Of a DNA stretch of 63,987 bases, positions 27,238 to 28,825 are shown piece by piece. A program made the position numbers and the translations under genes. The first letter of the stretch is position 1, and every line of letters begins with the position of its first letter. This DNA comes from a bacterium BMS3Abin02 (GTDB lineage: Bacteria; Actinomycetota; Acidimicrobiia; Spongiisociales; UBA4744). The stretch lies in assembly GCA_002897675.1 (NCBI GenBank), contig BDSU01000007.1, positions 1 through 63,987 of the forward strand, read 5' to 3'. The notes beneath the pieces are model-generated. The model saw only the letters and a program-made list of their open reading frames with translations, did no database searches and had not been told where the DNA came from.

Positions 27238-28008
27238 TCAGGTCTCTGGCGACCGTGCCCACGCCGGACACCGATCTTTGAACGAGCACCAGTCGCACAG
27301 TGGTCCCGGATTCGCCGGGAACCGTTCTTCGGCGATCGCCTGGTCGATGCGATCCCACAACGCTCGAACTGCGCGCTCCACGGCATCGAGCTTGCTGTCG
27401 TCGATGCCGAGCCGGTACATGGTGGGGCCGTTCAGATAGAGCAGACGGACTTCGATCGGCGTGCGACCGGTCCGCTTACGGACGAGCAGGGCGTAGATCT
27501 TCAGGGCAAAGAACGCGCCCATGGCATAGCGCTCAGGAGGGGCTTTCCCGGTCTTGTAGTCGAGGATGACGAGGTCGCCGTCTGCGGTCTCGTCGATTCG
27601 ATCCAGGATGCCGCGAATCGCCATGCCGTCGAGTTGCTCGAGCATGTTGAGTTCGCGATGCAGCGGCGACACCTCGGTCGGATCCTCGAGAGCGAAATAG
27701 TTGCCGAGCAAGGCCATACTCTCCATGCCCCAGCGGCGTTCGGCATCGCTGTCCTCGAACAGTTCGAGGTACTCCTCGTTGTCGCGCAGCTCGGTCCATG
27801 CTTGTCGAAACAGCTCATAGAGCCGCTCTGCGGTGCGCTCCGGAGCGGGCAGATCGTAGAGGCGTTCCAGGGCGAGATGGGCCGTGGTGCCTCGCGCCTG
27901 ATAGATCGTGGTCGGTTCCGGGAGCCGGTCGATGGCGCGGAACTTGAACAGCTGCGGACACGTCTTGAAATCGCCGGCCCTGCTTGGGGAAAGGGTTTGG
28001 AGACTCAT
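27238..28008 (-). CDS. RecB/Cas4-like PD-(D/E)XK nuclease with Fe-S cluster motif
   Basis: 256 residues from the ATG at 28008; the 220-codon upstream frame is non-conserved and covers the hairpin region. Motifs in order: cysteine in FKTCPQLF, His in GTTAHLALERLY, Asp in ILDRID, VILDYKTGKAP and terminal CxxCxxxxxC (CDWCSFKDRC). This is the single-domain RecB-exonuclease family with a 4Fe-4S cluster, known across actinobacteria and related in fold to Cas4 and the AdnAB nuclease domains. The usual QxxxY glutamine is replaced by Ala (ALKIY). Its partner is unknown; the helicase-nuclease pair 2.2 kb away is a candidate. Confidence 0.85.
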   Translation of the reverse strand: MSLQTLSPSRAGDFKTCPQLFKFRAIDRLPEPTTIYQARGTTAHLALERLYDLPAPERTAERLYELFRQAWTELRDNEEYLELFEDSDAERRWGMESMALLGNYFALEDPTEVSPLHRELNMLEQLDGMAIRGILDRIDETADGDLVILDYKTGKAPPERYAMGAFFALKIYALLVRKRTGRTPIEVRLLYLNGPTMYRLGIDDSKLDAVERAVRALWDRIDQAIAEERFPANPGPLCDWCSFKDRCPAWARSPET

Positions 28009-28196
28009 GGTCGTGACGATAGCGACCGGGTGTGACACCACATGACGTGAGTCGCGAAAACTCGACCTGTGACCGCGAAAAACAGACAAGCCTGAGGCTT
28101 GCATGTTCATGGAGGCTTCCGTAAGTTGCCGTTGCTGTGTTGGAGACGTTCGATGCAGCAAGGGTGAGCCGGCCGGGCGACTGGACGGCGAACCTG
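28009..28196. other. Upstream region of the nuclease gene with CGCGAAA boxes
   Basis: No gene. GTCGCGAAA at 28051-28059 (inside GAGT...ACTC) and ACCGCGAAA at 28072-28080 lie close before the nuclease start. The same GTCGCGAAA box recurs at 28582-28590 and 28603-28611. Confidence 0.4.
28087..28101 (-). terminator. Intrinsic terminator acting on the minus strand
   Basis: CAAGCC-TCA-GGCTTG followed on the minus strand by TCTGTTTTT. It would stop minus-strand transcripts entering the nuclease gene from the hairpin region, so the nuclease promoter should lie at 28009-28086. Confidence 0.65.
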
Positions 28197-28534
28197 CCGA
28201 CTTTCCGGTCGGTGCTCCGAGAGGGGCCGTCCTCCGAGAGGAGGCGTATCGTGAAGCCTTCGGGGTTCGCGGTCGGATCGGGAAGCGGGTCCTTCCGGTG
28301 ACGGAGGGAGGCTTCCTCCGGGTTTCGACTCGGAGTGGGGCAACACTCGGACTTCGGTTCTGCCGAGGCGAGAGTGGTCCGACGGGCCTTCGGGCTCGTG
28401 GGACACCGCAGACTGCGGTAACCGGAGTCGGTTTCCGACTTCGGCCCCGGCGGTCCGGTGTTTCGACACCGGGTTCGGCGGGACGGGAAACCCCGAGAGG
28501 GCTGACGTTTCGGCAGAGGCTCCTTCGGGGTTTT
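28197..28534 (+). ncRNA. Array of twelve consecutive hairpins ending in a terminator: candidate structured RNA
   Basis: Stems found by eye at 28197-28212, 28214-28227, 28231-28244, 28253-28268, 28281-28296, 28302-28320, 28331-28350, 28352-28368, 28382-28399, 28405-28419, 28422-28444 and 28455-28472, then the terminator-like hairpin at 28489-28532 with TTTT. Each has 5-10 pairs; loops include GAGA twice and TTCG three times, both stable RNA tetraloops on the + strand. Four stems hold one G-U pair each that would be a C-A mismatch on the minus strand, so the + strand is the RNA. Two stems have a single G-G mismatch. I see no resemblance to RNase P RNA, tmRNA, SRP RNA or 6S RNA. Promoter not identified. 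Confidence 0.5.
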
Positions 28535-28541
28535 CTCGCGT
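28489..28541 (+). terminator. Terminator-like hairpin, repeat copy 1
   Basis: AACCCCGA at 28489 pairs with TCGGGGTT ending at 28532, continuing as a 14-pair stem with one A-C mismatch and three G-U pairs, loop near 28504-28517, then TTTTCTCGCG. It is almost the same as 28773-28825. Confidence 0.7.
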
Positions 28542-28772
28542 CGTGGCCCGCTGCGCATGTCGTACCCGGTATGTGGAGGTGGTCGCGAAATTTCGGTTGG
28601 TGGTCGCGAAATTCGGGAAGGATTCTGGGTTGTGTTTGGTGGCCGGTGACGGTAGAAATGGGGTTGCGCAATGGAGGTAACTTCGTAGCGCACCTGAGAC
28701 GGTCGAGAGATCATCTTGGGGCTCCCATCGGGAGACCGTTCCTTTCGGGGCACGGAGTTCCAGTGGGAAAGG
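28542..28772 (+). other. Second segment between the two terminator repeats, possible second RNA
   Basis: No protein gene. Contains the tandem repeat GGTGGTCGCGAAAT (starting at 28577 and 28598), a stem ACGGTC (28699-28704)/GACCGT (28734-28739), CTCCC-ATC-GGGAG (28722-28734), and a 9-pair stem GTTCCTTTC (28738-28746)/GAAAGGAAC (28767-28775). The last overlaps the start of the following terminator stem and the alternatives compete in part. Confidence 0.4.
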
Positions 28773-28825
28773 AACCCCGAGAGGGCTGACGTTTCGGCAG
28801 AAGCTCCCTCGGGGTTTTCTCGCGT
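28773..28825 (+). terminator. Terminator-like hairpin, repeat copy 2
   Basis: Stem from AACCCCGAG (28773) to CTCGGGGTT (end 28816) with 14 pairs and one A-C mismatch, then TTTTCTCGCG. Compared with copy 1, two stem positions differ and both keep pairing (G-C to G-U, T-A to T-G), as expected for selection on RNA structure. Confidence 0.7.

Follow-up and report, generated by a model that had tools for sequence, protein, structure and literature searches.

Regulatory RNAs that sequester proteins, such as RsmX, RsmY and RsmZ or CsrB and CsrC, are built from serial hairpins closed by an intrinsic terminator. The GGA motifs in their hairpin loops are the sites recognized by CsrA/RsmA, and their expression is controlled through a GacA site. 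Hairpins matter more than sequence in the E. coli RNA naRNA4, which reportedly consists of many hairpins to which HU binds with little sequence specificity. Accounts of the RsmX/Y/Z genes describe an upstream activating site combined with gene duplication (PMC2375449, PMC7911923). Ms1, a structured RNA mapped across Actinobacteria, has a gene for a HAD-IB hydrolase as its neighbour, and the mapping does not mention Acidimicrobiia (PMC9130861). Our literature searches on noncoding or small RNA in Acidimicrobiia, and on the CGCGAAA motif in connection with dnaA, found nothing on point.

Two adjacent genes described here, RNA1 and RNA2 (Table), belong to a single family of noncoding RNAs, hitherto undescribed, in Acidimicrobiia. 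That the family is real and noncoding we regard as close to certain. Both genes lie in a 63,987-nucleotide stretch of DNA, which we call the window. Like the Rsm and Csr RNAs, they form a small duplicated gene family in which activating sequence, promoter, serial hairpins and terminator follow one another, but the loops are of the UNCG and GNRA types rather than GGA, the operator is shared with dnaA rather than being a GacA site, and the phylum is a different one. Actinobacterial Ms1 and 6S RNA are likewise structured, stable RNAs from a conserved locus, yet they form a rod with a bubble and have other neighbours. The resemblance to naRNA4 and REP-derived nucleoid RNA lies in the primacy of hairpins over sequence, whereas the present RNAs come from genes of their own, with promoter and terminator, at one locus instead of from dispersed repeats. 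OLE, GOLLD, ROOL and HEARO/OMEGA are also highly structured and undeciphered; the present RNAs differ in having no Rfam match, and conserved ends around a variable middle. Our overall reading is of undescribed tandem RNA genes that are driven by an activator, made together with dnaA and active in trans through protein binding, and we give it a probability of roughly 0.5.

Table. Features of the RNA1-RNA2 locus, in window positions
Feature	Position	Strand	Remarks
RecB/AddB/Cas4-like PD-(D/E)XK nuclease gene	27238-28008	-	Divergent neighbour; locus marker; conserved cluster
Tandem operator 1, CGCGAAA-N14-CGCGAAA	28053-28080	+	Boxes 21 bp apart, start to start; same architecture in homologs
RNA1 promoter	28099-28127	+	-35 TTGCAT (28099-28104), -10 TAAGTT (28122-28127), 17-bp spacer; near-fixed spacing in 88 homologous units
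RNA1	28134-28535	+	About 402 nt, 13 hairpins; start predicted from the -10 element, end from the terminator
RNA1 conserved 3' hairpin/terminator, CCCCGAGAGGG...CTCCTTCGGGG TTTT	28488-28536	+	Covariance model R1, 66.3 bits
Tandem operator 2, CGCGAAA-N14-CGCGAAA	28584-28611	+	From an exact double-box search of the genome
RNA2 promoter	28630-28658	+	TTG (28630-28632), -10 TAGAAA (28653-28658)
RNA2	28665-28819	+	About 155 nt; hairpins at 28665-28692, 28693-28720, 28723-28768 and 28771-28818
RNA2 conserved 3' hairpin/terminator	28772-28820	+	Model R1, 71.2 bits

An initial annotation of the window had singled out a run of hairpins at 28197-28534 as a candidate structured RNA, read from the + strand and matching no known class. 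The run is real and folds strongly on that strand, but its limits were too narrow: the transcript probably starts near 28134 (the start was set by rule, 7 bases past the -10 element), about 60 bases further upstream, and so takes in two more hairpins. Over 28150-28540, the + strand folds at -226.9 kcal/mol (z -5.94), with none of 100 dinucleotide shuffles as good, and the - strand at -170.7 kcal/mol (z -3.14). RNA1 as delimited here comprises 13 hairpins closed by an intrinsic terminator on the + strand (z -5.9 to -6.8), and 28134-28533 is the strongest-folding 400-nt tile of the window when both strands are compared. The 13 terminal hairpins of its minimum-energy fold include two GAGA loops, as the annotation had counted, and five TTCG loops, the last being that of the terminator hairpin.

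Comparison with the nearest homolog shows that this structure has been kept. Only 2 of the 24 substitutions between them break a pair, whereas random placement of the same number broke 8.3 on average and at least 3 in each of 2000 trials. Long reading frames on both strands had made a coding block a candidate, but this closest homolog carries an 11-nt insertion inside the hairpin block; because the insertion breaks the frames, no reading frame is conserved through it. At gathering thresholds, Rfam 15 finds only one tRNA in the window; with a permissive threshold, the best sub-threshold match scores 17.3 bits against a 50-bit cut-off. There are no matches in 17 homologous loci. Together with the covariation described below, these folding, frame and Rfam results bear out the proposal of a previously undescribed structured RNA from the + strand. 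RNA2, the promoter, the operator and the RNA family were absent from the initial annotation. Transcription of both genes is very likely, judging from their promoters and terminators.

The terminator of RNA2 is nearly the same as that of RNA1. Exact CGCGAAA double boxes occur only twice in the 2.5-Mb assembly, once before each RNA gene, and the two copies of the 3' hairpin in this genome are both at the one locus. A genome of the same genus holds an 86% identical copy of the locus with an additional tandem copy of RNA2. Operator 1 is separated from the RNA1 -35 element by 18 bases; in the units as a whole, box spacing is 20 or 21 bp and the gap to the TTG of the -35 is almost always 18 bases.

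We assembled 88 distinct homologous units from Acidimicrobiia, each with promoter and terminator. Their mean folding z is -5.55 on the + strand and -2.99 on the - strand, and in 80 of the 88 the + strand folds more strongly than the - strand when each is scored against shuffles, in agreement with the orientation first proposed. UNCG or GNRA tetraloops close 530 of 790 predicted + strand hairpins (67%), against 3.5% in dinucleotide shuffles, 0.9% on the - strand and 1.9% in the rest of the window. It is only in a reading of the + strand that these loops are the stable RNA tetraloops. Among the 790, the census counted TTCG 222 times, GAAA 99, GCAA 89, GAGA 55 and GGAA 5; the GGA loop motif of the RsmZ/CsrB RNAs is absent. 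The units folded contain from 2 to 21 hairpins of varying sequence, and what is kept is the promoter, a hairpin at the extreme 5' end and the 3' hairpin. By analogy, the array resembles the protein-holding Rsm RNAs in its constant ends and control and its elastic hairpin middle; with their loop motif absent, membership of that group fails, but the analogy holds.

Covariation in the homologs points the same way. An alignment of 14 short RNAs of the four-hairpin form has 34 consensus pairs, 17 of which show pairing-keeping changes on both sides; because this alignment also supplied the predicted structure, the measure of cells paired is favoured, and the both-side count is the firmer one. None of 500 controls with shuffled partners reached the observed value, and slid partners fell far below it.

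In the 3' hairpin, a set of 36 diverse sequences retains CCCGAGAGGG...CTYNYTCGGG, in which an A faces A, C or U and one G-U pair is invariant (36/36); neither the mismatched A nor the G-U pair is needed for a terminator. This constancy is partly built in where loci (76 of them) came via an exact terminator pattern, and the bias was checked with units found by promoter alone, which also carry the motif, and with a wider covariance-model search. Gene conversion between tandem copies could also be reflected in the conservation of this hairpin.

Searching 84,980 species' genomes with the terminator pattern returned 76 stretches, and for almost all of them the label is Acidimicrobiia or Actinomycetota. 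Among the others were some labelled just 'bacterium', a few labelled Acidobacteria, which are probably mislabelled bins, and one Porphyromonas, which looks like a chance match. At E <= 1e-4, the covariance model of the 3' hairpin finds a match in 117 of 138 genomes of the bacterium's order and, in the rest of the class, in 20 of 257, which belong to a few other families. A phylum-wide sample yielded just one genome from outside the class, and its match is marginal (E 5.9e-7). Matches in two families outside the order, f23 and f13, look real because multi-hairpin sequence precedes the 3' hairpin, copies stand in tandem in two f23 genomes, and the f13 copy is flanked, as in the order, by the nuclease and PH-domain genes. 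Nearly all members of the RNA family are known from metagenome-assembled genomes.

Within the order, 57 of 80 loci have a gene of the nuclease cluster (the nuclease and related UvrD/RecB genes) nearby, and 46 of the 80 are followed by a PH-domain (bPH2-type) gene. Such conserved neighbours indicate a chromosomal locus inherited vertically. In the window's family the downstream position is taken by a pair of paralogs, C8 (28907-29206 and 29325-29594; 99 and 89 aa), which lie near the locus in several families and have no NCBIfam match. As to a phage origin, a similar phage record was not found. Six fairly complete genomes of genus g45 in family f8 (G105-G110) have neither the 3' hairpin nor the exact promoter pattern. 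Their joint absence suggests that the RNA was lost in this genus and is dispensable there.

The operator links these RNA genes to others. Of the order's 138 genomes, 107 contain the operator/promoter pattern, as do 4 of 257 genomes from outside it; a reversed control had no match in the order. Genes were identified with NCBIfam as those for DnaA and for NrdJ, the B12-dependent ribonucleotide reductase. Upstream of dnaA, tandem CGCGAAA boxes at the 20/21-bp spacing recur across the order (L189-L205): 17 of 18 genomes examined have the double box with 0 to 2 mismatches, each beating 60 shuffles, and the alignment of the eighteenth dnaA began inside the gene. One of these 17 is the genome that the window comes from, with one mismatch (L193, G000:C39). 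A further 17 sites were retrieved from other contigs within the order, and every one is a few hundred bases ahead of nrdJ. This nrdJ double box is present in many f7 genomes; the nrdJ of the window's genome has a weak match only, with no clear double box. In 17 genomes (L155-L171), the nrdJ double box is accompanied by a second promoter and NrdR-like repeats (CACAAGATGTTGTGG).

Three of the four pattern matches outside the order precede dnaA, as does one further site within it. Three AT-rich genomes of about 1 Mb, in family f12 outside the order (L172-L174), carry the double box before dnaA, so its regulator probably predates the order. CGCGAAA boxes are missing from the RNA promoters of f23 and f13, which means that the shared operator is not universal. 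A scan of 11 sequences, one of them from f13, found the DnaA-box core GTGGATAA upstream of 7 of 10 f23 RNA copies (shuffles, 0.7%), at a nearly constant 285-319 bases before the terminator hairpin (L247, L249-L252, L258, L259). The RNA is thus connected with dnaA by a different route in each of two clades, and we consider it likely that the RNA shares regulation with dnaA.

These observations suggest how the system may work. An activator would drive each sigma70-type promoter from a pair of CGCGAAA boxes that lie ahead of the -35, separated by two helical turns, and each RNA gene would be transcribed from its own promoter up to the conserved hairpin terminator. The product would be a chain of short hairpins under very stable tetraloops, acting in trans on a putative protein partner as sink or scaffold. 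Protein binding is suggested by the conserved A mismatch and invariant G-U pair of the 3' hairpin, and by an array kept as structure; this part of the reading we advance tentatively. The RNA may be co-expressed with dnaA, and with nrdJ too in certain lineages, and so serve the replication or growth programme of the cell.

Other explanations deserve consideration. An RNA polymerase-binding RNA, a functional counterpart of 6S or Ms1 that regulates transcription by growth phase, would agree with a stable RNA that has a gene of its own at a conserved locus, and the class may lack a known RNA of this kind, given the silence of the Ms1 survey on Acidimicrobiia (PMC9130861). Yet the units folded form serial independent hairpins and not one long rod that opens into a central bubble, Rfam gives no match, and a HAD hydrolase was not seen among the gene clusters read (nuclease, PH-domain, acyl-CoA synthetase, glutamate dehydrogenase-like and others), which makes this counterpart improbable. 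Alternatively, the RNA could be an architectural element of the nucleoid or of replication, its many hairpins being recognized with little regard to sequence by HU or a protein like it. An array variable in sequence and constant in structure, and regulation shared with dnaA, argue for such a role; counter to it, conservation of the 3' hairpin suggests one or more contacts that do depend on sequence, and we think this role quite unlikely. Base pairing, either with mRNAs or between the tandem RNAs themselves, has in its favour an invariant GGGGGCCCGCTTTCCC in f8 short RNAs (L035, L036, L042, L047, L053, L085, L114, L118, L135) that complements GGGTCCCCGG of several f8 long RNAs (L036, L040, L047, L048, L114), the partners sometimes being in the same genome. 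These motifs are missing from most units, including those of the window, and very little sequence is unpaired, the loops being closed by stable tetraloops. Since so little is free to pair, we give base pairing small credence.

Same-strand genes downstream would suit a cis-acting leader or attenuator, but each tandem copy has its own promoter and terminator, and no one downstream gene is conserved, as would be expected of a riboswitch: its identity differs by lineage, from the PH-domain gene to the C8 pair. A leader is highly improbable on these grounds. The downstream genes, moreover, look housekeeping-like and are lineage-variable, unlike the endoribonuclease toxin genes that follow the repeats of type III toxin-antitoxin systems. 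Finally, many closely spaced palindromes might act as DNA and yield no RNA at all, as recombination sites, mobile-element repeats or cruciforms. This is barely credible: stems tolerate G-C to G-U changes, promoter and terminator stand at fixed places, and two vertically inherited copies at a single locus do not amount to the many dispersed copies of REP/BIME or mobile repeats. Palindromes at the DNA level are rejected on account of strand asymmetry, the tetraloops being on one strand only.

Returning to a protein-binding RNA made with dnaA, it is possible, if doubtful, that it is an effector of the Acidimicrobiia replication programme, co-activated with dnaA and nrdJ and acting on replication, the nucleoid or transcription via a protein that reads the 3' hairpin. 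Looking across the entire analysis, we regard this as a new class of noncoding RNA, its newness residing in the RNA family. An RNA gene family that spans an order, is absent from Rfam and has an operator shared with dnaA comes with a concrete regulatory lead. The conserved 3' hairpin provides both a search model and bait for a protein partner, and the CGCGAAA tandem operator before dnaA is itself a testable finding. The family thus offers a way into cell-cycle control in Acidimicrobiia, a class known mostly from metagenomes.
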